This document shows, piece after piece, positions 20,328 to 44,275 of a stretch of 64,000 nt of DNA. The position numbers and the translations under genes are program-made. Source of the stretch: Streptomyces sp. NBC_00461 (GTDB taxonomy: Bacteria > Actinomycetota > Actinomycetes > Streptomycetales > Streptomycetaceae); assembly GCF_036013935.1 (NCBI RefSeq), contig NZ_CP107902.1:6729001-6793000 (forward strand), given 5' to 3'. The notes under the pieces are model-generated. The model saw only the letters and a program-made list of their open reading frames with translations. It had not been told where the DNA came from and ran no database searches. Each line of letters opens with the position of its first letter. Position 1 is the first letter of the stretch.

Positions 20328-21887
20328 TCAGCCCGCCGTGATGATGTTTTCCAGGGCCCGGGACACCGAGCGGTCGGCCAGGGCGGTGGTGGTCAGCGCC
20401 GGCGGCATGGCGCCGGTGGAGCCGGGCAGCAGGGAGCTGTCCACCGCGAACAGGTTGTCGTGGCCGATGAGTTGGCCCGCCGAGTCGGTGGCCTCACCCA
20501 GGACGACGCCCCCGGTCGAGTGAGAGGTCAGCAGGGGGGTCACGATGTCGAGCCCGAGCCCCGTGGCGGCGTTGAGCCGCTGCGCGGTGCCCTGCACGGC
20601 GGCGGTGACGCGCAGGATCCGAGGGTCGGCGGCGGGCCAGTACAGCTCCGCGCTGTCGCTCAGCAGCCGGTAGGTGAAGCGGCCGATCGGGGGTGCCACG
20701 GACATCGCGAGGGCGGTGTCCGTGAGCGGTCCGAGCGCCGGGTAGCCCAGCGGGAAGCTCAGCAGGCTCACCGGAGCCTTCGGGTTGTCCCAGTCGGTCG
20801 CGAGGATGTGGGCGGGCCCGCCCTGGGCCTTGCCGGTGAGCGGCAGACCGGCCCGGGCGACGATGTGGTCGCCGCCGCTGCCCCAGTTGCGCCCCACCTG
20901 GTCGTTGAGGCGTGGCAGATGACCGCGTGCCTTCGCCCGCACCAGCAGACGGGTGGTGCCCAGCGACCCGGCGGCCAGGAAGACATGGCGGGCGGTGAAC
21001 CGCGGGCGCGCCAGCTCGTGGCCCTGCTCGTCGATCTGCCGGCAGTCGATCACATAGCGGTCGCCGTCGGCCCGGATGTCCAGCACCTGGTGCAGCGGCA
21101 GCACCTCGGTGCGTCCGGTGGCCTCCGCGGCGGCCAGGATGGTGCGGTCCACGCTGCGCTTGGCACCGCTGTTGATGCCGAGCATGGCGTCGCCGACGAT
21201 CGCCGAGCGGACCGCCGTACCGGCTATCTCGGCGCGCACGGTCTGCCAGTCGATCGCCATGTCGACGCGCCGGGTCCCCAGCCCCGCGCGTTCGGCGGCG
21301 GTCAGGAAGTCACGCGCGTTGGCGTAGTAGGGGGAGGCGAGCACGTCGTCGGGGATGGGAGCGACGCCGATCAGCCCGCGCGCCCGGGGATACCAGGTCC
21401 CGGCCATCTCGGCGTAGTCGAGCCGGGTGCCGAAACTCGCGCGGAACAGCTGCTCCGAAGGAGCCTCCATGACGGCGTAGTTGACCAGCGAGCCGCCGCC
21501 GACACCGGCACCCGCCAGACACGTCACGCCGCCGCCGGCGTAGGCCTCCAGTACGCCGGTGAACAGGCTGACCGGTTCCCGGCTGAGGGGCGAAGTGGTG
21601 GACAGCCAGGAGGCCCGTCCGTCCGGGCGGGCCTGCGGGGCGAAGGTGTCACCGGAGGGGGTGATGGTCCAGCGTCTTCCCCGCTCCAGGACGACGGAGT
21701 TGATTCCGGCCTGGGAGAGCCTGAGGGCCGCCACCGACCCGGCGTAGCCGCTGCCGATGACGACAGCGTCCACGGACTCGGAGGCCTTCGCCTCGGTGCT
21801 GAGCAGGGGTACGGACAGCGCCGCAGCTCCGGCTGCTCCCGCACCGCGCTTGAGGATCTGTCGTCGGGTGGGCGCAGGCTGGGTCAT
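20328..21887 (-). CDS. Tat-exported GMC oxidase, cholesterol-oxidase-like
   Basis: A protein of 519 residues. The N terminus TRRQILKRGAGAAGAAAL is a twin-arginine signal, so the enzyme probably folds with FAD in the cytoplasm and acts outside. The FAD site is VVIGSGYAGSVAALRL (residues 42-57). FLAAGSLGTTRLLVRAKARG and HSTGGVVLGEATD align by eye with cholesterol oxidase. The catalytic His is kept (H456), but the position 38 residues later, Asn in cholesterol oxidase, is Met494 in GSTGAMPPALTTT, and the region of its catalytic Glu reads DNPKAPVSLLSFP with no acid. A different alcohol substrate is therefore likely, perhaps the exported polyketide. ATG 21887 is chosen because it begins the Tat signal. 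Confidence 0.85.
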   Translation of the reverse strand: MTQPAPTRRQILKRGAGAAGAAALSVPLLSTEAKASESVDAVVIGSGYAGSVAALRLSQAGINSVVLERGRRWTITPSGDTFAPQARPDGRASWLSTTSPLSREPVSLFTGVLEAYAGGGVTCLAGAGVGGGSLVNYAVMEAPSEQLFRASFGTRLDYAEMAGTWYPRARGLIGVAPIPDDVLASPYYANARDFLTAAERAGLGTRRVDMAIDWQTVRAEIAGTAVRSAIVGDAMLGINSGAKRSVDRTILAAAEATGRTEVLPLHQVLDIRADGDRYVIDCRQIDEQGHELARPRFTARHVFLAAGSLGTTRLLVRAKARGHLPRLNDQVGRNWGSGGDHIVARAGLPLTGKAQGGPAHILATDWDNPKAPVSLLSFPLGYPALGPLTDTALAMSVAPPIGRFTYRLLSDSAELYWPAADPRILRVTAAVQGTAQRLNAATGLGLDIVTPLLTSHSTGGVVLGEATDSAGQLIGHDNLFAVDSSLLPGSTGAMPPALTTTALADRSVSRALENIITAG

Positions 21888-21970
21888 GGGTGGCGTGGGC
21901 TCTTCTCTTCGCGGACTCTTCGGCGCTTCACTTCGGCGCTTCACGATTCCGGGTGGGCCCGCGCCGCGGC

Positions 21971-22030
21971 AACCCCTGACTTCGGCTGCCGGCAACAGGG
22001 GTTGTAACCATAGGTAATAGGGGTCGTACC
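21971..22030. promoter_or_regulatory. Divergent operator region between the GMC oxidase and LuxR genes
   Basis: The intergenic region is 380 bases. Within it AACCCCTG (21971-21978) is the exact inverse of CAGGGGTT (21996-22003). AGGGGTTGTAACC (21997-22009) is echoed by AGGGGTCGTACC (22019-22030), exactly 22 bases on, two helical turns. The same kind of elements recur before PKS1 at 25246-25275. The LuxR protein is the obvious candidate to bind them. Confidence 0.6.
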
Positions 22031-22267
22031 GCCTATGCTCGGAGTGAAATGTGAGGGGAAGGGGAAGGAGTTGCAGGAGTCTGCCGGGGGCTAAGGGCGT
22101 TTGCCGGGTGAGCCTTCCTAGGCTGTTCGGTGTACCTGGCAATGGGGGCAGCGCGGCCCCTCGATGTGCCGGGCGCGGGGGGCGGCGCGGCCCCTCTACC
22201 TGCGGAAGCTCCGTGTGGTGACGGATTTTTCGCAAACTTGAATTACCTAATGGGGGAAATAGAGAGA

Positions 22268-25444: not shown

Positions 25445-33103
<7,659 letters not shown>

Positions 33104-33165: not shown

Positions 33166-36100
33166 ATGACAACGGCCACCAACGGCAGCACCACTCACGA
33201 CCGTTCCGACCTGCTGCGCCGCGCCCTGGTCGAGCTGAAGACCGCGCGCGCCGAGGCCGCCGAAGCCAAGAAGGCCCTCACCGAGCCGATTGCTGTGGTG
33301 GGGGTGGGGTGTCGTTTTCCTGGTTCTGGTGGGGGTGTTGAGGGTTTTTGGGATCTGTTGACGCGGGGTGGGTCCGGGGTGGGGTTGGTGCCGGGGGACC
33401 GGTGGGATGTGGAGGCGTTCTTCGACGCTGATCCGGAGGTGCCGGGGCGGACGTATGCGCGGCATGGCGGGTTTGTGGATGGGGTGCGGGAGTTTGATGC
33501 GGGGTTGTTCGGGATTCCGCCGCGGGAGGCGGTGCGGGTGGATCCGCAGCATCGTCTGGTGCTGGAGGTGGTGTGGGAGGCGCTGGAGCATGCGGGGGTG
33601 GCGCCGGATTCTTTGCGGGGCAGTCGTACGGGTGTGTTTGTGGGGATGGGTGGGAGTGATTATGAGCGGTTGACGGCTTCGGGTGGGGATGTGTCGGGGC
33701 TGGATGGTTATACGGCGACGGGGGGTGCGCTGAATTTCGCGGCGAACCGGGTGTCGTATGTGCTGGGGCTTGAGGGTCCGAGTCTGGTGGTGGATACGGC
33801 GTGTTCGTCGTCGTTGGTGGCGTTGCATCTGGCGTGTCAGGCGTTGCGGGCTCGGGAGTGTGAGCGGGCGCTGGTGGGTGGGGTGAATCTGCTGTTGTCG
33901 CCGGGGACGACGGTGGCGTTGTCGAAGGCGCGGATGTTGTCGCCGGAGGGGTTGTGCAAGACCTTCGATGCTTCGGCGGATGGTTATGTGCGGGGTGAGG
34001 GCTGCGGTGTGGTGGTGCTGCGGCCGCTTGCGGACGCGCTCGCGGAGGGGCAGGACGTCCTTGCGGTGATCAGGGGCTCCGCCGTCAACCAGGACGGGAA
34101 GAGTTCAGGACTCACCGTGCCGCGTGGACCGGCCCAACAGGAGGTGATCCGGCGGGCGTTGGCGGTCGGTGGGGTCGCTCCGGGTGATGTGGGTTATGTG
34201 GAGGCGCACGGGACGGGGACGCCGTTGGGTGATCCGATCGAGGTGCGGGCGCTGGCCGGGGTGCTGGGTGAGGGGCGTGCGGTGGACCGGCCGGTGGTGT
34301 TGGGGTCGGTGAAGACGAATATCGGGCATCTGGAGGCGGCGGCCGGTATCGCGGGTCTGATCAAGACGATTCTGGCGGTCGGTCGTGGGGTGATTCCGCC
34401 GCATCTGAACATGTCGACGCCTAATCCGTTGCTGGCGTGGGACGAGTTGCCGGTGCGGGTGGCGACGGAGTTGACGCCGTGGAACGAGGAGCGTCGGGTG
34501 GCGGGGGTGTCGTCGTTCGGGTTCGGCGGGACCAACGCGCATGTGATCGTGGAGTCCCCGCCCGCGCCGGCCGAGACGATCGTCGACGTCGCGGATCAGG
34601 GTCCGGTGGTGGTGAAGGTGTCCGGGCGCAACGAAGACGCCCTGCGCGCCTCCGCACAGCAACTCGCCGCGTTCGTACGGGACTCCGCGACCCCGGTCGC
34701 ACTGCACGGGGTGGCCTGGGAGGCCGGCGTGGGCCGGGCGGACCTGCCGCACCGGGCCGCCGTCGTGGCCGGCTCGCTGACCGAACTCGCCGACGGGCTC
34801 GGGCATATCGCCGAGGGCGGGTCGCTGCCCGCCGGCGTGGTGTCGGGCCGGCGCGACGAGACCGGCGCGCCCAGGATCGCCTTCCTGGCGCCCGATGGGG
34901 AGGCCACCGGGCTGCCGTCCGGCCTGTACGGGCGGATCGACGTGGTGACGGAGACCGTCGACGAGATATGCGAGGCCGTCGACCTGACACCGTCGGCACT
35001 GATCGCCTCCGACGCGGAGCCTCAGGGCGGCGGTGCGCTCGCGGCATACGCGGCGGCCGTGGCCCTGGGAGCCTGGTGGAAGTCCGTCGGCGTGGCCCCG
35101 GACGTTGTCGCCGGGCATGGCGCGGGCGCCTACGCGGCCGCCGCGCTCGCCGGAGTCCTCACCGTCGCCGACGGCGCGCGCCTCGTCGCCGCGGCCGACG
35201 ATCGGGAGACGCTGGCGAAAGTCCTCGCCGACATCGAACTGCGCCTGCCGGAGGTCGACTTCGTGTCGGACGCCACCGGCAAACCGGCCGGCGCCGAGGC
35301 GGTCACCGTCGACTATTGGCTGCGCCAGGCCGCCGAACCCGTCCCCTTCGAGGACGTGCTGTGGTCCACGCTGGGCATCCGGACCCGGGTCCTGGTCGAG
35401 CTGGGCTCGCCGGACCGGCGGCCGATGCTCGCTGAACTGGTCTCGGAGGGCGGACTGACCCGCGTCGCCTCCACGCCCCCCGCGGACACCACCGCCGACG
35501 CGCACGAGTGCCTGCTGCAGGCGCTGGCCCGCGTGTGGAGCGAGGGTGCCGACGCGAACTGGGCCCAGGTCAACGGCCCGCGGCCCGCCCGGGTACCCAA
35601 GCTGCCCACATACCCCTTCCAGCGCCGTACGTACTGGATGCAGCCCGCAGCCCACGACACCGCCGCCCAGGTCACCGCGCAGCCCGCCGCCGGTGACGCG
35701 GGTGCGGCGCTGCGCCCCCGCGTCCTCAAGGCGGCCACCGGGGACACGATCGGCGAGACCCGGCTGTCGCTGTCGGTCCTGCCGTTCCTCGCGGAACACC
35801 GGGTGCACGACCGGCTCGTCGTACCCGGCGTGGTCTACCTCGAACTGCTGCTGCGCTGCGCGGCGGAGACCTTCGACGGCCCGGTGCGCATCGAGGGTCT
35901 GGAACTGTCCCGGCCGCTGGTGCTGGGCGACGACGACGCGGCGACCGTCCAGGTCGTCATCTCTCCGGCCGAGTCAGGCCGGGCCCGGGCCCGGGTGTTC
36001 AGCGCGGACCCCAAGGGCGGCTGGCAGCAGCATCTGACCGTCGTGGTCGTCGAGGAGGAGCCCGCCTCCCCCGAGGACCCCGGCACCGGCACCCAGGCCT

Positions 36101-38253
36101 CGGCGGTCGACCTCCACGCCGTACGGGCACGCTGCGCCGAGAGCCTCGACGCGGACACCTTCTACCGGCAGGCCTGGCACCCCTCCTTCCGGCTCGGCCC
36201 CAGCTTCCGCCTGGTCCAGAGCGCCTCGCGGGGCCCCGGAGCGGCGGTGGGCACCCTGGTCCGGCCCGGCCCGGACGCCGAGGGGATCACCGCGGGGATC
36301 CGGCCGGAACTGCTCCTGCTCGACGCGTGCGTGCAACTGGTCGCGGTGGCCGCGCACTCCGGCACCGAGGGCTGGGACCAACGGCCCGTACGGCTGGGCA
36401 CCGGCTACCAGAAGATGGTCGTGCACCGGCCGGTGGAGGGCGCCGCACTGGAGTGCGCCGCCACGGTCCGGGACACCGCGGACGGTTCGGTCATCGGTGA
36501 CATCGCGCTCACCACGACGGACGGCACCCCCGTCGCCGACCTGCTGGGCGTTTCGTTCCGCCCGGTCGGCCCGCAGGTACTGAGCCGGCTGATCGCCGAA
36601 CGGGCCACCGGCGAGGGCGGATCCGGGGCGCCGGACGCGGCACCGGCGCCGGCCCGCGAGGTGCTCCTCGCGGCGGACCCGGTCCGGCGGCAGCGTCTCC
36701 TGCTCGATCACTTCGTACGGGTGCTGGCCGGCATTCTGGCGGCCGAGCCCGAGGAGGTGCACCCGGACACCCCGGTGACCGACCTGGCCGACTCGCTGAT
36801 GATGGCCGAGCTGCAGACCATGGTGGACCGGGACCTGGGCATCACGATCCCGATGGAGATGATCTTCGACGGCAGCGGGCTGCGCAGCCTGGCCGCCTGG
36901 GCCGCCGAGGAGTTGGTCGAAACCGCGGAAACGGCGGAAACGGCTGACACGGCTGACACGGCGCATGCCGCGGAAGCCTCACCCTCAGCCGTCGCCAGGG
37001 CGGCGGAGCCGGCACCCGTTGCCGCGCCGAAGCCCCGCCCGCGCCGCCGCAAGACCATGACCGTCGAGGAGATGGCCGGACGGGCGCGGCTGGAGGAGTC
37101 GATCGCCCCCGCCCTCCCGCCGGAGCCCGTGGGCACCGCCCCCGAGGCCACCCTGCTCACCGGCGCCACCGGATTCGTCGGCGCCTTCCTGCTCGCCGAA
37201 CTGCTCGACCGTCGCTCCGGCGACGTCCTGTGCCTGGTCCGCGCCGACGACGAGGCACATGCGCTCCGCCGGATCGTGGCCAATCTGGAGGCCTACGGCG
37301 TCGACCCGGAACCGTACCGGGAGCGCATCGTGCCGCTCGTCGGCGACCTCGGCGAGCCGTTGCTCGGGCTGGACGACGGCGCGTTCGCCGCACTGCACGC
37401 CCGGGTGGGCTCGATCATCCACTGCGGCGGCATGGTGAAGTGGACGTACCCCTACAGCGGTCTTGAGGACGCGAACGTCGCCGGTACCCGGGAGGTGCTG
37501 CGGCTGGCCACGGCCGGCGCGGCCCGGCCCGTGCACTTCATCTCCACCGTCGGTGTCTTCTCCTCCATCGACTACACCGCCGACCTGGTGCACGAGAGCG
37601 ACGACCTGCACAGCAGCGGAGCACTGGCGGTCGGCTACGCGCAGACCAAGTGGGTGGCCGAGCAGATGGTCCGCACCGCCCACGAACGCGGCGTACCGGT
37701 CACCATCCACCGCATCAACACCGGCGGGCACAGCCGTACGGGCTCCTTCAACCGTCTCGACCATCTGAACATGATGCTCAAGGGCTGCATCGAGGCCGGC
37801 ATCGCGCCGCAGGACGTGCGGATGCCCGTACAGCCCGCGCCGATCGACTACGTGGCCGCCGCCGTGGTGGAAGTGGCAGGCCGTCCCGAACTGAGCGGCC
37901 GCACCTTCCACCTGGTCAACCACGGGTCGCTGAGCTGGTCCCAACTCTTCGACCACGTAGAGGAGTTCGGCTACCCGATGCGGCGGCTGCCGTTCGACGA
38001 GTGGAAGGAGCGGGTGACCAACCGCAGCTCGGGAACCATGGCGCTGCTCGGCCTCGCGCCCTTCCTCAACGACACCGTCGACGACGTACGGCTGCCGCTG
38101 TCCGACTCGGCCGAGACCCGCTCGGCTCTCGACCCGGCCGGACTGGTCTGCCCGTCCCTGGACGCCGACCTCGTCCACACCTATCTGCGGCGCTTCGTCG
38201 CCACCGGCTTCGTCGACGCGCCGGCGCGGCCGGACGCACCGCAGCACGCCTGA
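33166..38253 (+). CDS. Type I PKS, terminal module: KS-AT(inactive)-DH-ACP-thioester reductase
   Basis: A protein of 1695 residues. An N-terminal docking helix (RSDLLRRALVELKTARAEAA) precedes KS3 (about 40-460, Cys213 intact). AT3 (about 560-825) is dead by sequence: GHGAG at 650-654 has Gly652 for the nucleophilic Ser, PGQG is PDGE, and compared with AT1 about 83 residues including the HAFH motif are missing. DH (about 850-1150) has His878 in HRVHDRLVVP and Asp1053 in LLDACVQ, so it may be active, although the motif Gly is Asp. ACP3 has Ser1210. A linker contains ETAETAETADTADT repeats. The terminal reductase has TGATGFVG (1332-1339) and Y1491/K1495, giving an aldehyde or alcohol. There is no KR in this module. 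ATG 33166 follows GGGGGAA. Confidence 0.95.
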   Translation: MTTATNGSTTHDRSDLLRRALVELKTARAEAAEAKKALTEPIAVVGVGCRFPGSGGGVEGFWDLLTRGGSGVGLVPGDRWDVEAFFDADPEVPGRTYARHGGFVDGVREFDAGLFGIPPREAVRVDPQHRLVLEVVWEALEHAGVAPDSLRGSRTGVFVGMGGSDYERLTASGGDVSGLDGYTATGGALNFAANRVSYVLGLEGPSLVVDTACSSSLVALHLACQALRARECERALVGGVNLLLSPGTTVALSKARMLSPEGLCKTFDASADGYVRGEGCGVVVLRPLADALAEGQDVLAVIRGSAVNQDGKSSGLTVPRGPAQQEVIRRALAVGGVAPGDVGYVEAHGTGTPLGDPIEVRALAGVLGEGRAVDRPVVLGSVKTNIGHLEAAAGIAGLIKTILAVGRGVIPPHLNMSTPNPLLAWDELPVRVATELTPWNEERRVAGVSSFGFGGTNAHVIVESPPAPAETIVDVADQGPVVVKVSGRNEDALRASAQQLAAFVRDSATPVALHGVAWEAGVGRADLPHRAAVVAGSLTELADGLGHIAEGGSLPAGVVSGRRDETGAPRIAFLAPDGEATGLPSGLYGRIDVVTETVDEICEAVDLTPSALIASDAEPQGGGALAAYAAAVALGAWWKSVGVAPDVVAGHGAGAYAAAALAGVLTVADGARLVAAADDRETLAKVLADIELRLPEVDFVSDATGKPAGAEAVTVDYWLRQAAEPVPFEDVLWSTLGIRTRVLVELGSPDRRPMLAELVSEGGLTRVASTPPADTTADAHECLLQALARVWSEGADANWAQVNGPRPARVPKLPTYPFQRRTYWMQPAAHDTAAQVTAQPAAGDAGAALRPRVLKAATGDTIGETRLSLSVLPFLAEHRVHDRLVVPGVVYLELLLRCAAETFDGPVRIEGLELSRPLVLGDDDAATVQVVISPAESGRARARVFSADPKGGWQQHLTVVVVEEEPASPEDPGTGTQASAVDLHAVRARCAESLDADTFYRQAWHPSFRLGPSFRLVQSASRGPGAAVGTLVRPGPDAEGITAGIRPELLLLDACVQLVAVAAHSGTEGWDQRPVRLGTGYQKMVVHRPVEGAALECAATVRDTADGSVIGDIALTTTDGTPVADLLGVSFRPVGPQVLSRLIAERATGEGGSGAPDAAPAPAREVLLAADPVRRQRLLLDHFVRVLAGILAAEPEEVHPDTPVTDLADSLMMAELQTMVDRDLGITIPMEMIFDGSGLRSLAAWAAEELVETAETAETADTADTAHAAEASPSAVARAAEPAPVAAPKPRPRRRKTMTVEEMAGRARLEESIAPALPPEPVGTAPEATLLTGATGFVGAFLLAELLDRRSGDVLCLVRADDEAHALRRIVANLEAYGVDPEPYRERIVPLVGDLGEPLLGLDDGAFAALHARVGSIIHCGGMVKWTYPYSGLEDANVAGTREVLRLATAGAARPVHFISTVGVFSSIDYTADLVHESDDLHSSGALAVGYAQTKWVAEQMVRTAHERGVPVTIHRINTGGHSRTGSFNRLDHLNMMLKGCIEAGIAPQDVRMPVQPAPIDYVAAAVVEVAGRPELSGRTFHLVNHGSLSWSQLFDHVEEFGYPMRRLPFDEWKERVTNRSSGTMALLGLAPFLNDTVDDVRLPLSDSAETRSALDPAGLVCPSLDADLVHTYLRRFVATGFVDAPARPDAPQHA
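33278..34670 (+). repeat. KS direct repeat, copy B
   Basis: The second copy of the 1393-base KS repeat (see 25464-26856). The repeat ends abruptly after AACTCGCCGC in both genes; beyond it, the two AT regions are related but clearly diverged. Confidence 0.92.
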
Positions 38254-38292: not shown

Positions 38293-39501
38293 ATGACGAC
38301 CCTGGCCATCGATCTCACCAGCACCGAATACCGGCTCAACCCCTGGCCGCTGTACGCCAGGCTGCGCGACGAGTCCCCCGTCCACCATGTGCGGGGCGGC
38401 GCCGCGGACGGCTCGGACTTCTATGTGCTGAGCCGCTACGACGACGTCGCGCTCGCCCTGAAGGACAAGAAGCTGTTCTCGTCCCAGATCCGGCGGGACG
38501 ACTACATGAACCTGCCGATGCTGGTCAACCGCGACGCCCCGGAGCACACCCGGCTGCGCCACATGGCCAACCGCGCGTTCAACGCCCGTCTGGTCCGCAC
38601 GCTCGGCGACTGGGTGCAGACCCTCGTGGACGACCTGATGACCGAGGTGCTCTCGCACGACCGGGTGGAGTTCGTCGAGGCGTTCACCACCATGCTGCCC
38701 CTGCGCGTGGTCGGCGGCATGCTCGGCATCCCGCTCGACCGCAAGAAGGACCTGCGCCGCTGGTCGCAGGCGGTGATGGACAGCTTCGCGGTGGCCGCGG
38801 GCATGGATCCCGACGAGGCACCCGGGTTCTTCGAGGACCTGATGGAGTTCGGGAACTACATGGGCGACCTGGCCGCCGAGCGCAAGGGCAAGCCCAACCA
38901 GGAGGACATCCTGGGCGAGCTGGTCGTCCAGCACGAGGCGGGCGACCTGACCCGGGACGAACTGGTCACCATGGCCTGGTCGTTCGTCGCCGCAGGGCAC
39001 GAGACCACCATGAACCTGCTGGGCGGCGGCTTCCACATGCTGCTGAGCGACCCGGAACTGGCCAAGCGGATGCTGGCCGCTCCCGAGCGCTCCGGCGACT
39101 TCGCCGAGGAGTATCTGCGGCTGAACAGCCCCACCCAGTGGCTGCTGCGCCGCGCCAAGGAGGACGTCGAACTGCACGGGTCCGTCATCCCCGAGGGCGC
39201 GCTGGTGCACGTGCTGCTCGGCGCGGCCAACCGGGACCCGCGTCACTTCCCCGACCCCGACACCTTCGACCTGGACCGCCCCAACAGGGGCGACCACATG
39301 GCCTTCGGCGCGGGCCCGCACTTCTGCCCGGGCGCCGCCCTGTCCCGGCTGCTGGCCGACCGCGCCTTCCACGCCTACTACGACCACCTCGACCGGTTCT
39401 CCCTGGACCCCGAGGCGCCGGCCCAGTACCGCACCCGGCAGGGGTCGTACGGCATCGCGCGGATGGACGTTCTGGTGACACCGACCACGGGGGACAAGTG
39501 A
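38293..39501 (+). CDS. Cytochrome P450
   Basis: A protein of 402 residues, a soluble bacterial class P450 without membrane anchor. Visible motifs are the I-helix AGHETT (234-239), with His in place of the more usual acid-side Gly-Asp/Glu spacing but E237-T238 kept, the K-helix EYLR, and the haem loop FGAGPHFCPG with the ligand Cys345. ATG 38293 is preceded by AGGAG. It follows PKS2 by 39 bases and its stop overlaps the ligase start (TGATG), so it belongs to the PKS operon and most likely hydroxylates or epoxidises the polyketide or the fatty starter. The redox partner is not in the window. Confidence 0.95.
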   Translation: MTTLAIDLTSTEYRLNPWPLYARLRDESPVHHVRGGAADGSDFYVLSRYDDVALALKDKKLFSSQIRRDDYMNLPMLVNRDAPEHTRLRHMANRAFNARLVRTLGDWVQTLVDDLMTEVLSHDRVEFVEAFTTMLPLRVVGGMLGIPLDRKKDLRRWSQAVMDSFAVAAGMDPDEAPGFFEDLMEFGNYMGDLAAERKGKPNQEDILGELVVQHEAGDLTRDELVTMAWSFVAAGHETTMNLLGGGFHMLLSDPELAKRMLAAPERSGDFAEEYLRLNSPTQWLLRRAKEDVELHGSVIPEGALVHVLLGAANRDPRHFPDPDTFDLDRPNRGDHMAFGAGPHFCPGAALSRLLADRAFHAYYDHLDRFSLDPEAPAQYRTRQGSYGIARMDVLVTPTTGDK

Positions 39502-41258
39502 TGACGACAGCGACCACCCTTCCCACGACCTCCGCGACGCCCTCCGATCCGGCGGCGGAGACGACCCTGGACCGGTTCCTGCACCACGCCGAACGGCAGC
39601 CCACCGCACCGGCGTTCACCTTCCTCGACGACGACGGCGAGGTGCAGCGGACGCTGTCCTACGGCGAGCTGGACGCGACGGCGCGCAGCATCGCCGCCGG
39701 ACTGCGGTCCAGGCTGGCGCGCGGGGAGCGGGCACTGCTGCTGCTGCCCGAGGGCCTGGACTTCGTCCCCGCGTTCTTCGGCTGTCTCCAGGCCGGCGTC
39801 ATCGCCGTACCGGCGTACCCGCCGCTGCCGCTGCAGAACCGGCAGCGGATGGAGACCCTGAAGTCCATCGTCGACGACTGCCGGCCCGCCGCGGTGATCG
39901 TGGCCGTGCCGCCCGAGATGCTGGACACCGTGCGCTCGGTGATGCCGGACCTCGCGGACCTGTGGTGGACCACCGTGGCGGAGCTGTCCGCCGCCGACGC
40001 CGCCGACGCCCCGGACGACCACCGCCCCGGGCCGGACGACATCGCCTTCCTGCAGTACACCTCCGGCTCCACGGCGATGCCCAAGGGCGTGACGGTCACC
40101 CACCGGGCGCTCGCCCACAACGAGGAGATGATCCGGGAGTCCTTCGAGCACGACCAGGGACTCACCGGCGTGGGCTGGCTGCCGCTCTTCCACGACATGG
40201 GCCTGATCGGCCACGTGGTGCAGCCGTTGTGGATGGGCGGTCACTCGATCCTGATGTCACCGCTGACGTTCATCAGGCGGCCCGTCCGCTGGCTGCGGGC
40301 GATCTCCCAGTACCGGGCCACCACCAGCGGCGCACCCAACTTCGCGTACGACATGTGTGTCGCCCGCATTCGTGAGGAGGACTGCGAGGGCCTGGACCTG
40401 AGCAGCTGGAAGGTCGCCTACACGGGCGCAGAACCGGTGCGGGACCGCACCCTGCGCGCCTTCGCCGAACGCTTCGCCGCCCACGGCTTCGACTCCACCG
40501 CCGCCTACCCGTGCTACGGGCTCGCGGAGGCGACCCTGCTGGTCACCGGTGCCCGGGTGGCGGCCGAGCCCGTCCGGCTCACCGTGGACGACGAGGCACT
40601 GGGCGCCGGGCGGGTGCTGCCGGCCGACGTCGGGACGACGCTGGTCAGCAGCGGGATCACCCGCATGGACCGGGAAGTGGTCATCGTCGACCCGGACACC
40701 GCCGAACCGGTCGGGCCCGGCCGGGTGGGCGAGATCTGGATCGGCGGGCCTGACCTGCCCACCGGCTACTGGGGCAGGCCCCAGGTCAGCGACGAGGTCT
40801 TCGCCGCCAAGCCCGTCGGAGGCGGCGGCCCCTACCTGCGCTCCGGCGACCTGGGCTTCCTGCACGACGGCGAGCTGTACGTCACCGGGCGCTGCAAGGA
40901 CCTGATCATCGTCGGCGGCCGCAACCACTACCCCCAGGACCTCGAATTCACCGCGGAGCAGGCCCACTCCGCGCTGCGCACCGGCTGCTCCGCGGCGTTC
41001 GCGGTCGAGGACGGCGGAGCCGAACGCGCGGTGCTCGTGGCCGGCGCCGGGCAGGGCGCGGCCGGGACCGACGAGGCCGCTGCCGCCAAGCGCGCCGAGA
41101 TCGCGCGCGTGGTGCGCACCGCGGTCGCCGCCGCGCACGGCATCACCCTCGACGACGTGGTGGTGGTCGGTCCCAACGCGGTGCCCAGGACATCCAGCGG
41201 CAAGGTGCAACGTGGTGCCTGCCGGGCCGCCTACCTGCGAGGAGAGTACGCCCAGTGA
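39501..41258 (+). CDS. Fatty-acyl-AMP ligase
   Basis: A protein of 585 residues of the FAAL branch of adenylate-forming enzymes. Motifs are LQYTSGSTAMPKGVTVTHRA (A3), LPLFHDMGLIGHVVQPLWMG, FIRRPVRWLRAISQYRATTS and GAPNFAYDMC, which are characteristic of FAALs, then YGLAEATLLVTG (A5), YLRSGDLGFL (A7) and the late KDLIIVGGRNHYPQDLE. FAALs activate a carboxylic acid with ATP and pass it to a carrier protein rather than to CoA. The ATG at 39501 overlaps the P450 stop. The next gene encodes a free ACP and overlaps it, so ligase and ACP are almost surely partners that make the PKS starter. Confidence 0.95.
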   Translation: MTTATTLPTTSATPSDPAAETTLDRFLHHAERQPTAPAFTFLDDDGEVQRTLSYGELDATARSIAAGLRSRLARGERALLLLPEGLDFVPAFFGCLQAGVIAVPAYPPLPLQNRQRMETLKSIVDDCRPAAVIVAVPPEMLDTVRSVMPDLADLWWTTVAELSAADAADAPDDHRPGPDDIAFLQYTSGSTAMPKGVTVTHRALAHNEEMIRESFEHDQGLTGVGWLPLFHDMGLIGHVVQPLWMGGHSILMSPLTFIRRPVRWLRAISQYRATTSGAPNFAYDMCVARIREEDCEGLDLSSWKVAYTGAEPVRDRTLRAFAERFAAHGFDSTAAYPCYGLAEATLLVTGARVAAEPVRLTVDDEALGAGRVLPADVGTTLVSSGITRMDREVVIVDPDTAEPVGPGRVGEIWIGGPDLPTGYWGRPQVSDEVFAAKPVGGGGPYLRSGDLGFLHDGELYVTGRCKDLIIVGGRNHYPQDLEFTAEQAHSALRTGCSAAFAVEDGGAERAVLVAGAGQGAAGTDEAAAAKRAEIARVVRTAVAAAHGITLDDVVVVGPNAVPRTSSGKVQRGACRAAYLRGEYAQ

Positions 41259-41503
41259 GCACGAAGACCCTGACCCGGCGGCAGGTGCGGAGCTGGCTGG
41301 TCGGCCGGGTGGCCGAGCATCTCAAGGTCGCCCCCGAGACCGTCTCCCCGCAGGCCGTCTTCAGCGAGCTGGGACTGTCCTCCGTCCAGGCGGTCGAACT
41401 CACCGCGGAACTGGAGGACTTCAGCGGCCTGAAGATACCTCCCACGATGGTCTACGAGTACCCCACGATCGACGACGTCGCGGCGTACGTCGCCGGCCAG
41501 TGA
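41255..41503 (+). CDS. Stand-alone acyl carrier protein
   Basis: A protein of 82 residues, a complete ACP. The phosphopantetheine site is in SELGLSSVQAVELTAEL, where Ser43 replaces the serine of the DSL motif and Ser42 replaces the acid. The GTG start overlaps the ligase stop (GTGA). It has a relatively basic N terminus (TKTLTRRQVRSWLVGRV). It is the probable acceptor from the acyl-AMP ligase and donor to KS1 or to the KAS III enzyme that follows. Confidence 0.93.
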   Translation: MSTKTLTRRQVRSWLVGRVAEHLKVAPETVSPQAVFSELGLSSVQAVELTAELEDFSGLKIPPTMVYEYPTIDDVAAYVAGQ

Positions 41504-41520: not shown

Positions 41521-42555
41521 ATGGCACTCAGTCCTGTCCCCGGGGCGCGGATCGCGGCTCTGGGGCACTATCTCCCGGCCACCGTGCTGTCCACCGAGGC
41601 CGCCGCCGAGCGGCTCACGGTGGACGCGGAGTGGATCGTGGCGCGCACCGGGATCCGGGAACGCCGGCTGGCGGACCCGGACGAGACGGTCGCCGACATG
41701 GCCACGAGCGCGGCACGTCACGCGCTCACCAAGCTGTCCGCGGACCCCCGTTGCACCGACCCGGCGCAGGAGATCGACACGGTGATCGTGGCGACGTCCA
41801 GCGCGGAGTCCACCATGCCCACCACCGCGGCCCGGGTCGCGGCCCGGCTCGGGCTGGCGCAGCCGGCGGCGTTCGACCTCAACAACGCCTGCGCCGGGTT
41901 CTGCCATGCGCTGGCGGTCGCCGACGCGCTGATCCGGGCGGGCAGCAGTCGCGGCGCGTTGGTGATCGGCGCCGACAAGGCCAGCGCCTGGCTGGACTGG
42001 ACGGACCGGGACACCGCGATCCTCTTCGCGGACGGCGCCGGCGCGGCCGTGGTGCTGCCGCACGAGCGCCGGGCCATCGGGCCGGTGCGGTGGGGCAGTG
42101 CGGGAGAGCGCGCGGACCTCATCGCCATCGACCCGGTCGACCGGGTGCTGCGCCAGGAAGGCCGGGCGGTCTACCGCTGGGCCACCGGGCTGGGCTCCAC
42201 GGCCCGGGAGGTCTGCGACAACGCCGGCGTCAAGCCCGGCGACCTGGCCGCCTTCGTCCCCCACCAGGCCAATCTGCGCATCGTCGACGCACTCGCCCGG
42301 CACCTGAACCTGGACGGCGTCCCCGTCGCCACCGATGTCGTGGACACCGGCAACACCATGGCCGCGACGATCCCGATCGCGCTGTCCCGCATGACCAGCC
42401 GCCCCGAGGCCGAGGTACGGGGCAACGTGCTGCTGTTCGGCTTCGGCGCGGGGCTGGCGTACGCCGGACAGGTCGTCGACCTGGATCTGGCGTCGGCGTC
42501 TCCGGCAGCGGCGCCCTGTGAGCCGGTCGCGGTGAGCGTGGGCCGCGGTGACTGA
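41521..42555 (+). CDS. KAS III (FabH-like) ketosynthase or acyltransferase
   Basis: A protein of 344 residues with the complete FabH triad: Cys124 in NNACAGFCHAL, His248 in FVPHQANLRI and Asn278 in DTGNTMAAT. The entry helix W-I-x-x-R-T-G-I-x-x-R (EWIVARTGIRERR) is canonical. ATG 41521 is preceded by GAGGAG. In pathways such enzymes either start chain assembly by decarboxylative condensation with malonyl-ACP, or act as acyltransferases. Placement after the ligase-ACP pair suggests it handles that ACP. The last 20 residues (PAAAPCEPVAVSVGRGD) are an extra tail. Confidence 0.92.
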   Translation: MALSPVPGARIAALGHYLPATVLSTEAAAERLTVDAEWIVARTGIRERRLADPDETVADMATSAARHALTKLSADPRCTDPAQEIDTVIVATSSAESTMPTTAARVAARLGLAQPAAFDLNNACAGFCHALAVADALIRAGSSRGALVIGADKASAWLDWTDRDTAILFADGAGAAVVLPHERRAIGPVRWGSAGERADLIAIDPVDRVLRQEGRAVYRWATGLGSTAREVCDNAGVKPGDLAAFVPHQANLRIVDALARHLNLDGVPVATDVVDTGNTMAATIPIALSRMTSRPEAEVRGNVLLFGFGAGLAYAGQVVDLDLASASPAAAPCEPVAVSVGRGD

Positions 42556-42760
42556 ACTCCCGGCATCCCGGCCGGCCCGCTCCGACGGCCGGCCCGCACC
42601 CTCGACGGAGGAAGAGCCTCCGGGGGATCAGGCCCAGCACGAACAGGCCCAGCACGAACAGGCCCAGCACGAACAGGTTCAGTACGAACACGCCGTCCTC
42701 CGGGCCCTCCTCACCTTCACCGGGGGTCTGGCCGGCCCCAGCAGCGCGAACCCAGGCTGA
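42548..42760 (+). CDS. Possible small repeat protein (hypothetical)
   Basis: A possible protein of 70 residues. GTG 42548 overlaps the end of the KAS III gene by eight bases, with no clear ribosome site. Residues 27-47 are four pentapeptides of the form Q-(A/V)-Q-(H/Y)-E encoded by 15-base repeats. The C terminus (LRALLTFTGGLAGPSSANPG) is weakly hydrophobic. I do not recognise it. It could be the last gene of the operon, or merely repeat DNA between the cluster and the terminator. Confidence 0.35.
   Translation: MTELPASRPARSDGRPAPSTEEEPPGDQAQHEQAQHEQAQHEQVQYEHAVLRALLTFTGGLAGPSSANPG
42629..42688 (+). repeat. Four tandem 15-base repeats
   Basis: CAGGCCCAGCACGAA occurs at 42629, 42644 and 42659, and a variant CAGGTTCAGTACGAA at 42674. 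The 15-base period preserves the reading frame of the small ORF. Such arrays change copy number easily. Confidence 0.9.
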
Positions 42761-42775
42761 ACAGCGAGCGGAACA

Positions 42776-42810
42776 CTGAGGGCGCCCCCTGTCGCAGGGG
42801 GCGCCCTCAG
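42776..42810. terminator. Bidirectional terminator at the right edge of the island
   Basis: CTGAGGGCGCCCCCTG (42776-42791) pairs perfectly with CAGGGGGCGCCCTCAG (42795-42810) around a TCG loop. It lies between the convergent cluster and pyk. Its arms match those of the hairpin at 16802-16835 over their first 13 bases. Confidence 0.87.
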
Positions 42811-42847
42811 CGCAGTACAGGAGCCTTCAAGGCCCTTGCCGGGTACG

Positions 42848-44275
42848 TCAGTTGCTGCCGCCGGCGATGTGGTGGACGCGGAGCATGTTGGTGGTGCCGG
42901 GGACGCCGGGGGGCGAGCCGGCGGTGATGATGACGATCTCGCCCGGGCTGAAGCGGTTGATCTTGGCGATCTCCTGGTCGACCATGTCGACCATCTCGTC
43001 CGTGGTGTTCACGAACGGCACGACGTGCGACTCCACGCCCCAGCTGAGGGTCAGCTGGTTGCGGGTGTTCTCGTCGGTGGTGAAGGCGATGATCGGCTGC
43101 TGGGCGCGGTAGCGCGACAGACGGCGGGCGGTGTCGCCGGACTGGGTGAAGGCCACCAGGCCGCGGCCGCCGAGGAAGTCGGCGATCTCGCACGCGGCAC
43201 GCGCGACCGAACCACCCTGCGTGCGCGGCTTCTTGCCCGGCACCAGCGGCTGCAGGCCCTTGCTCATCAGCTCCTGCTCGGCCGCGACGACGATCTTCGA
43301 CATCGTCTTCACGGTCTCGACCGGGTAAGCGCCGACGGAGGACTCCGCCGACAGCATGACCGCGTCCGCGCCGTCCAGGATCGCGTTGGCGACGTCGGAC
43401 GCCTCGGCGCGCGTGGGCCGGGAGTTGGTGATCATCGACTCCATCATCTGGGTCGCCACGATCACCGGCTTGGCGTTGCGGCGGCACAGCTCGATGAGCC
43501 GCTTCTGCACCATCGGGACCTTCTCGAGCGGGTACTCGACGGCCAGGTCACCACGCGCGACCATGACGGCGTCGAAGGCCATCACGACGGCCTCCATGTT
43601 GTCCACCGCCTGCGGCTTCTCCACCTTGGCGATGACCGGGACGCGGCGCCCCTCCTCGTCCATCACCCGGTGGACGTCGTCCACGTCCTTGGCGTCGCGG
43701 ACGAAGGACAGTGCGACCATGTCGCAGCCCATGCGCAGCGCGAAGCGGAGGTCCTCGACGTCCTTCTCGGACAGCGCCGGCACGTTGACGGCCGTGCCGG
43801 GCAGGTTGATGCCTTTGTGGTCGGAGACGACACCGCCCTCGATGACGATCGTCTTCACCCGCGGGCCCTCGACGTCCAGGACCTTCAGCTCGACGTTGCC
43901 GTCGTTGATCAGGATCTGGTCGCCGCGGTCCACGTCACCGGGCAGGCCCTTGTACGTCGTGCCGCAGATGGACTTGTCGCCCGGGACGTCCTCGATCGTG
44001 ATGACGAACTCGTCACCCCGCTCCAGCTCCACCGGACCCTCGGCGAAGGTCTCCAGCCGGATCTTCGGTCCCTGCAGGTCGGCGAGGACACCGATGGCCC
44101 GGCCGGTCTCCTTGGAGGCGGCCCGGACGCGGTCGTACCGCCCCTGGTGCTCGGCGTGGGTGCCGTGGCTGAAGTTGAACCTGGCCACGTTCATTCCGGC
44201 CTCGATCATCGAGACCAGCATTTCGTGGGAGTCGACCGCGGGGCCGAGAGTACAGACGATTTTCGAACGGCGCAT
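42848..44275 (-). CDS. pyk: Pyruvate kinase
   Basis: A protein of 475 residues, full length. It transfers phosphate from phosphoenolpyruvate to ADP in the last step of glycolysis. Motifs include SKIVCTLGPAVDS (N terminus), NVARFNFSHGTH, the catalytic Lys in VPVIAKVEKPQAV, MVARGDLAVE (Mg site) and the signature region VATQMMESMI. The C-terminal allosteric domain is present. ATG 44275 begins MRRSKIVC. It is transcribed in the same direction as pta and ackA, with 116 bases between, and may be partly cotranscribed with them. Confidence 0.96.
   Translation of the reverse strand: MRRSKIVCTLGPAVDSHEMLVSMIEAGMNVARFNFSHGTHAEHQGRYDRVRAASKETGRAIGVLADLQGPKIRLETFAEGPVELERGDEFVITIEDVPGDKSICGTTYKGLPGDVDRGDQILINDGNVELKVLDVEGPRVKTIVIEGGVVSDHKGINLPGTAVNVPALSEKDVEDLRFALRMGCDMVALSFVRDAKDVDDVHRVMDEEGRRVPVIAKVEKPQAVDNMEAVVMAFDAVMVARGDLAVEYPLEKVPMVQKRLIELCRRNAKPVIVATQMMESMITNSRPTRAEASDVANAILDGADAVMLSAESSVGAYPVETVKTMSKIVVAAEQELMSKGLQPLVPGKKPRTQGGSVARAACEIADFLGGRGLVAFTQSGDTARRLSRYRAQQPIIAFTTDENTRNQLTLSWGVESHVVPFVNTTDEMVDMVDQEIAKINRFSPGEIVIITAGSPPGVPGTTNMLRVHHIAGGSN

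Follow-up and report, generated by a model that had tools for sequence, protein, structure and literature searches.

The 6-methylsalicylic acid synthase handles its β-carbons in the order keto, hydroxy, keto and then uses a DH-type domain, and in the dehydrating bimodules of trans-AT polyketide synthases (PKSs) the downstream module has a DH and lacks a KR. Sharing of domains has been described for the aureothin PKS, in which one acyltransferase (AT) loads successive modules, and for azalomycin, whose ER acts across proteins (both in the available sections of PMC9899208). Discrete ATs rescue AT-null DEBS according to the accessible text of PMC6164871, an excerpt of PMC4661987 describes displacement of the AT in trans in algal PKSs, and AT-less modules are treated in PMC11907408, likewise available in part. 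The venemycin PKS was considered as a precedent and dropped, since the available text of PMC6941969 gives no sign of a missing AT. A literature search on the cluster type presented here, on inactive ATs whose role is taken over by another module and on bacterial alkylsalicylaldehydes returned no description of it among the matches listed, from a collection that covers few subscription papers.

The window analysed here, a stretch of 64,000 nucleotides from Streptomyces sp. NBC_00461, encodes two PKS proteins and a set of associated enzymes (L001-L006 and L047 are related loci introduced below):

20328..22049, - strand: GMC-type oxidoreductase, 5' end not fixed; homologues in L004, L005 and L047
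25445..33103, + strand: PKS1, KS1-AT1-ACP1-KS2-AT2-KR-ACP2 (domain analysis)
27032..28051, + strand: AT1, intact, with GHSVG and HAFH (sequence, Pfam); proposed donor for ACP3
30161..31183, + strand: AT2, intact, with GHSVG and YAFH; alternative donor
31940..32605, + strand: KR of module 2 (Pfam KR)
33166..38253, + strand: PKS2, KS3 - AT3 relic - DH - ACP3 - thioester reductase (TD) (Pfam, translation)
35710..36549, + strand: DH of module 3, catalytic His and Asp kept (Pfam PKS_DH_N / PS-DH)
36688..36909, + strand: ACP3, phosphopantetheine Ser kept (Pfam PP-binding)
37141..38178, + strand: TD (Pfam NAD_binding_4)
38293..39501, + strand: cytochrome P450, which adjoins PKS2 in L001-L006 and L047 too
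39501..41258, + strand: fatty acyl-AMP ligase-type starter activation enzyme (Pfam AMP-binding and DIP2-like AMP domain)
41255..41503, + strand: discrete acyl carrier protein (Pfam PP-binding)
41521..42555, + strand: KSIII, FabH-like (Pfam ACP_syn_III)

From its pair of domains, we take the ligase at 39501..41258 to be a FAAL. Module 3 alone is without a working AT, AT1 and AT2 being intact, and it contains a DH and no KR; no discrete AT gene was found among the cluster proteins searched, a subset of the ORFs. The TD, with NAD_binding_4 and the Thr/Ser-Tyr-Lys residues, is of the thioester reductase release type. The domain order (no KR, KR, no KR plus a DH-type domain) is that of a 6-methylsalicylic acid (6-MSA)-type programme. 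The processing order is the same as in the known synthase, which differs in that the present system is spread over three modules and two proteins and has a FAAL acyl starter and reductive release.

The initial annotation had described AT3 as dead, and the lesions that it named were all recovered from the sequence:

34867..35610, + strand: AT3 relic, large AT subdomain only (Pfam Acyl_transf_1 profile positions 67-114; predicted model)
34891..34902, + strand: PDGE where PGQG is expected (sequence reading)
35113..35127, + strand: nucleophile elbow GHGAG, Gly replacing the catalytic Ser (sequence reading)
35194..35256, + strand: 21-residue stub replacing a 104-residue AT segment with the catalytic His and the HAFH motif

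The elbow occupies residues 650-654 of PKS2 (the Met at 33166 being residue 1), where AT1 reads GHSVG. Between RLVAA (35179-35193) and DFVSD (35257-35271) there are 21 residues, against 104 in AT1 (27395-27706), HAFH included, and the reading frame of AT3 is open throughout. From established AT structure, the missing segment is the ferredoxin-like small subdomain. The Pfam Acyl_transf_1 profile (319 positions) matched AT1 over positions 2-302 and AT3 over 67-114 only. Structure prediction of the region, proposed in the initial annotation as a check, gave a compact AT large subdomain (AlphaFold2, alignment of 53 sequences; pLDDT 91.4, pTM 0.90). All 50 Foldseek matches listed for this model were KS-AT or AT structures of PKSs, with TMq up to 0.86 in alignments that span 401-465 columns for the 346 model residues. 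Lacking both the Ser nucleophile and the subdomain that supplies the catalytic His and the specificity motif, AT3 should not function as an acyltransferase; the remainder of it has been retained and is predicted to fold as the large AT subdomain.

A scan of genome contigs with the segment from AT3 to TD recovered relatives at six loci: Streptomyces caeruleatus (L001), Streptomyces sp. 8K308 (L002), Pseudonocardia alaniniphila (L003), Nocardia alba (L004), a Rhodococcus MAG (L005) and Streptomyces sp. KL109B (L006). All six combine an elbow that lacks Ser with the deletion, which leaves a stub of about 20-26 residues, and this rules out sequencing error or decay in a single strain. Since the lesion is common to organisms from Streptomyces to Nocardia and a Rhodococcus MAG, it is old and has been retained. 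A protein search scored 7,989 candidates and gave 1,186 matches, of which the best 120 were listed; 81 of these and the query make up a set of 82 KS-(AT)-DH-ACP-TD proteins, in which the L002 locus is P0015. The 39 rows P0084-P0122 (33 of 39 list a KR; coverage 31-53% of the query) were excluded from all counts. With class limits that we set on the residues between alignment columns, AT3 was intact in 24 proteins (one partial at the Ser), a relic in 37 (four partial) and core-less in 21 (several incomplete), the core-less and partial-relic counts being approximate in that 9 of 25 short-span rows lack the N-terminus including the KS, and P0026, classed as core-less, retains a shortened elbow. 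Core-less members include Amycolatopsis, Actinoplanes, Arthrobacter and Oerskovia. The nucleophile position of the 33 readable relics is Gly in 31, Ala in one and Ser in one (P0039), and the stub measures 8-32 residues in relics compared with 96-106 in the 24 intact AT3s.

Several members of this set stood out individually. P0039 retains GHSVG with its small AT subdomain reduced to 32 residues and is a possible intermediate of AT loss. The AT3 relic of P0004 spans 311 residues compared with 255 in the query, to which P0004 is otherwise 88% identical. The AT core is gone from P0076-P0079 and P0082, which are proteins of the same type from Arthrobacter, Oerskovia, Arsenicicoccus and their kin.

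The cluster has a patchy distribution. In the matches listed for 61 relatives, the one full-length DH-ACP-TD match was that of the organism's own genome; in 60 class-wide genomes, only its own genome passed 1e-85; and 59 genomes of the genus of N. alba gave two matches at 1e-100, N. alba itself and a further locus, L047. On plasmids, 54 records had short PKS matches, none of which spanned most of the query (best 9%), and there was no DH-ACP-TD match at 1e-80. The KSIII gene is present in the Streptomyces clusters L001, L002 and L006, and no match to it was found in the DNA examined for L003, L004, L005 or L047, so priming may differ between clusters with and without KSIII. A pyruvate kinase gene lies at the end of the cluster in the window (42555-42848) and also 3' of KSIII in S. 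caeruleatus, which suggests that these two clusters share a chromosomal site.

Catalytic residues outside AT3 are conserved. The Cys-His-His triad of an extending ketosynthase is present in KS3 of the window and in all 64 proteins with a readable KS (22 with intact, 26 with relic and 16 with core-less AT3), so that 42 of these 64 keep it without a working AT. The ACP phosphopantetheine Ser and the TD Thr/Ser-Tyr-Lys triad are each found in 82 of 82 proteins, as is the catalytic His of the DH; its partner is Asp in 78 and Glu in the other four. In all five orthologous PKS1 proteins read (L001-L004, L006), GHS is retained in AT1 as well as in AT2. HAFH is found in AT1 of the window, L001 and L006, L002 gives a YASH match, and AT1 of L003, L004 and L047 gave no match to the specificity-motif search pattern; AT2 has YAFH in the window and six loci. 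Over five comparisons, dN/dS was 0.43-0.67 for the relic AT, 0.21-0.54 for AT1 and 0.36-0.64 for the DH, by a simple counting method poorly suited to high-GC DNA. ACP3 evolves rapidly: five orthologues share 24-91% identity with the window and have dN/dS of 0.33-1.47, and in L003 (37%, dN/dS 0.98) and L004 (24%, 1.47) it is the least conserved functional domain compared. By its dN/dS the relic AT is constrained, if somewhat relaxed. In favour of a dying pseudogene cluster with AT3 as its first casualty, the relic AT has about twice the dN/dS of AT1 in the closest comparison (window and L001; 0.43 vs 0.21). Against it, different genera retain the other catalytic residues examined, the frames are open and relics account for 37 of the 82 proteins, and we find this explanation hardly credible. 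The AT3 lesion is real, old, retained, common to several genera and under constraint.

The initial annotation had also found the sequence flanking the lesion very close to AT1 and had called AT3 a decayed duplicate. This closeness applies to the KS and to the beginning of the KS-AT linker, at 98% DNA identity:

25466..26856, + strand: KS1 copy of a GRINS-like repeat pair
33280..34670, + strand: KS3 copy of the pair, with a 1,240 bp core, GC skew 0.40 and TA skew 0.34
26284..26320, + strand: KS1 patch matching the next feature
34098..34134, + strand: KS3-specific patch (..KSSGLTVPRGP..), un-homogenised, KS gating loop 2 by motif

GRINS are defined in the available sections of PMC9899208 as segments of at least 500 bp that are more than 80% identical to a segment elsewhere in the same PKS and have mean GC and TA skew above 0.15. 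KS1 and KS3 of the window fall within these limits, with 98.2% identity over 1,240 bp and GC/TA skews of 0.40/0.35 and 0.40/0.34, respectively (KS2, -0.10 and -0.09). GRINS-like skew was also seen in L001, where the KS3 TA skew of 0.14 is just below the limit, and in L006; it is borderline in L004 and absent in L003, L047 and KS3 of L002, whose KS1 is cut off. The near-identity of modules 1 and 3 evidently sits in the KS, in a GRINS-like pair kept alike by gene conversion. The pair resembles described GRINS in being duplicated KS segments with GC and TA skew (PMC9899208, available sections) and differs from them in that the two copies remain distinct over a 37-bp stretch of the presumed KS gate.

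Of the 22 mismatches between KS1 and KS3 of the window, 19 fall within the 42 nt after NQD, where 0.7 would be expected. The corresponding counts are 16 of 75 in L001 (2.5 expected) and 20 of 57 in L006 (1.9 expected). In L003, L004 and L047, with 71-80% identity between KS1 and KS3, there are 11, 16 and 12 mismatches in the patch compared with 12.3, 9.8 and 8.4 expected, so that the contrast is seen only where the remainder has been homogenised. The KS1 motif is NGLTAP in the window, L001, L003, L004 and L006 and SGLTAP in L047. KS2, where read, has AGLTVP, and KS3 has TVP, with Val at this position in 62 of 66 KS3 rows and Ala in four. KS gating loop 2 (FabF 265-275) begins at Asp265, a residue conserved in nearly all KSs compared in the accessible part of PMC7138838. 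We infer that the patch is gating loop 2 and that the Asp of NQDG corresponds to FabF Asp265. Because the KS3 patch has survived homogenisation of KS1 and KS3 in three genomes, KS3 seems to have been kept by selection as a distinct, working KS.

The closeness to AT1 did not extend to the AT itself. In fixed-length pieces, the amino-acid identity between AT1 and AT3 of the window is about 60% ahead of the deletion and 41% beyond it. Within-genome values for the window, L001, L002, L003, L004 and L006 are 60, 71, 61, 52, 56 and 74% before and 41, 41, 33, 40, 26 and 48% after. In the part before the deletion, a relic's own AT1 is its closest relative in four of six cases (the exceptions are the window, to which the AT1 of L001 is closer, and L003); in the part after it, other relics, which are 23-48% identical to each other (77% for the window and L001), are at least as close as the relic's own AT1. 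This pattern fits gene conversion from module 1 that reaches the front of the AT and ends before the deletion, with independent loss in each lineage as the alternative. Since the likeness of KS1 and KS3 is a gene-conversion tract and the AT sequence after the deletion has no such likeness, the description of AT3 as a simple decayed duplicate of AT1 is not supported. A recent duplication of AT1 was rejected as the source of the likeness, since the 98% identity of the KS drops in the AT to 60% before the deletion and 41% after it.

In a tree of the DH-ACP-TD region (82 rows, quick method), the state of AT3, intact or not, needs at least three changes when loss and regain are both allowed. The P0070 and P0072 relics are nested among intact ATs on starred branches, both in this tree and in a careful AT tree. 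Two distant branches evidently lost AT3 separately, and a single ancestral loss for all relics is unsupported. The AT tree needs seven changes between relic and intact, and AT1s and relics are intermixed in it, probably in part because of the conversion-affected AT front: the KL109B relic pairs with the AT1 from the same genome (100/100), and the AT1 of N. alba has as its sister a group of seven relics (from Nocardia, Rhodococcus and others; 100/99). Regain of AT3 by gene conversion from module 1 is possible in the main clade. The algal PKSs in the excerpt of PMC4661987 have likewise lost cis ATs from modules in evolution; the present case differs in being bacterial, in affecting the terminal module only and in having apparent intermediates of loss. 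P0016, which combines an intact AT3 with the KS1-type patch NGLTAP and adjoins a clade of core-less AT3s, is a possible case of AT regain by conversion from module 1.

L047, from the genus of N. alba, has a 3,238-residue protein with AMP-binding, three PP-binding, two KS, two AT and KR domains and a second, 1,742-residue protein with KS, AT, DH, PP-binding and NAD_binding_4 (Pfam). The AMP ligase and an ACP are fused upstream of KS1, as they also are in N. alba by tblastn matches, and homologues of the P450, the GMC enzyme and an SDR lie downstream of the PKS. AT3 of L047 is full-length, with GHSVG and QAFHS. L047 appears to be the same line with a live-looking AT3, and extension by module 3 is therefore likely the ancestral state.

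Two alternatives had been offered in the initial annotation, that another AT feeds ACP3 or that module 3 does not extend. The intact KS triad in 64 of 64 proteins, together with the same gene order and a working-looking AT3 in L047, favours the first, and we hold with moderate confidence that module 3 still extends and that ACP3 is loaded in trans by one of the PKS1 ATs, probably AT1. Among the possible donors AT1 ranks first, given its HAFH malonyl motif in the window, L001 and L006 and its being of the same AT type as the relics. Some findings run against this reading: AT1 and AT2 are on a different polypeptide from ACP3, ACP3 diverges fast and HAFH is not seen in every AT1. Moreover, conversion between KS1 and KS3 could by itself preserve the catalytic residues of KS3 in the genomes where the repeats are skewed (window, L001, L006), although the triad is retained as well in L002 and L003, which have a KS3 without skew.

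In the second alternative, a non-extending module 3 would pass the ACP2 product through KS3 to ACP3, the DH would remove the hydroxyl left by the KR of module 2 and the TD would release an enal, making the module a cis-AT counterpart of a dehydrating bimodule. AT3 is dead by sequence, none of the cluster proteins searched is a discrete AT, and module 3, like a dehydrating bimodule, has an intact DH and no KR, an arrangement that would fit dehydration and release of the module 2 product more directly than extension does. Non-extending KSs often lose a His. KS3, unlike the KS of a dehydrating bimodule, which lacks the catalytic His, keeps Cys-His-His, as do all 64 readable proteins, 42 of them without a working AT, and L047 represents the same line with an apparently working AT3. 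We consider non-extension rather unlikely. Another possible source of malonyl groups is the housekeeping malonyltransferase FabD, which serves fatty acid synthesis in bacteria. Loading of ACP3 by FabD in place of AT1 or AT2 would agree with the capacity of discrete ATs to load AT-null modules (PMC6164871, accessible text). In the loci read, however, the AT3 deficit adjoins an intact AT1 of the same AT type, which makes FabD an improbable donor.

Loading of ACP3 by PKS1 would resemble the aureothin PKS in that a cis AT serves other modules besides its own (PMC9899208, available sections). There this occurs within one polypeptide, whereas here PKS1 would load PKS2; in addition, the AT relic is retained here, and relatives show the AT intact, reduced or gone. 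Trans-AT PKSs are similar in having extending-type KSs without a working AT, and the core-less class keeps little or no AT core. The present family differs from them: cis ATs are found in modules 1 and 2, the cluster proteins searched include no discrete AT, and in many members a folded AT remnant is predicted to persist.

With loading in trans as the preferred reading, biosynthesis may proceed as follows. The FAAL would load an acyl starter, module 1 would leave a ketone and module 2 would give a hydroxyl. ACP3 would then be malonylated in trans, most likely by AT1 of PKS1 and less likely by AT2 or the cell's FabD, and module 3 would add the third malonate, all three modules thus extending, as we infer. 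The AT3 remnant would act as a spacer or scaffold between KS3 and the DH. The change from Ser to Gly was perhaps favoured, in that a lone Ser without the small subdomain might waste malonyl-CoA, which is speculation. The DH, as a dehydratase or ring-closing aromatase, and the TD would act last, with release as an aldehyde or alcohol, and the product would perhaps be modified by the P450 and the GMC enzyme. By analogy with the 6-methylsalicylate order, here laid out over three modules with a FAAL starter, a 6-alkylsalicylaldehyde-type product or a reduced form of it is plausible, and we predict it with lower confidence. A 6-MSA-like programme would also make sense of a DH without a KR, as a ring-forming dehydratase.

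More broadly, we tentatively propose a scattered actinobacterial family of three-module PKSs that would make 6-alkylsalicylaldehyde-type aromatics by a module-wise 6-MSA programme. In it, AT1 would load ACP3 across the subunit boundary as well as its own ACP. A stepwise record of cis-AT loss (intact; small subdomain lost with the Ser kept; Ser changed to Gly; AT core gone) would be preserved in the family, and GRINS conversion would overwrite KS3 together with the first part of the dead AT, the KS gate loop being protected by selection. Taken jointly, steps included, this proposal is doubtful enough that we would not expect every part of it to hold.

The origin of AT-less modules is debated and, to our knowledge, living intermediates are scarce. 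Intact, relic and core-less AT3s in otherwise matching modules, together with P0039, make each step of the loss testable in real proteins. The conversion-resistant KS patch points to KS residues that may not be swappable. If loading by PKS1 is correct, the family could offer a short, tractable line in which polypeptides share an AT, a point of relevance to PKS engineering.
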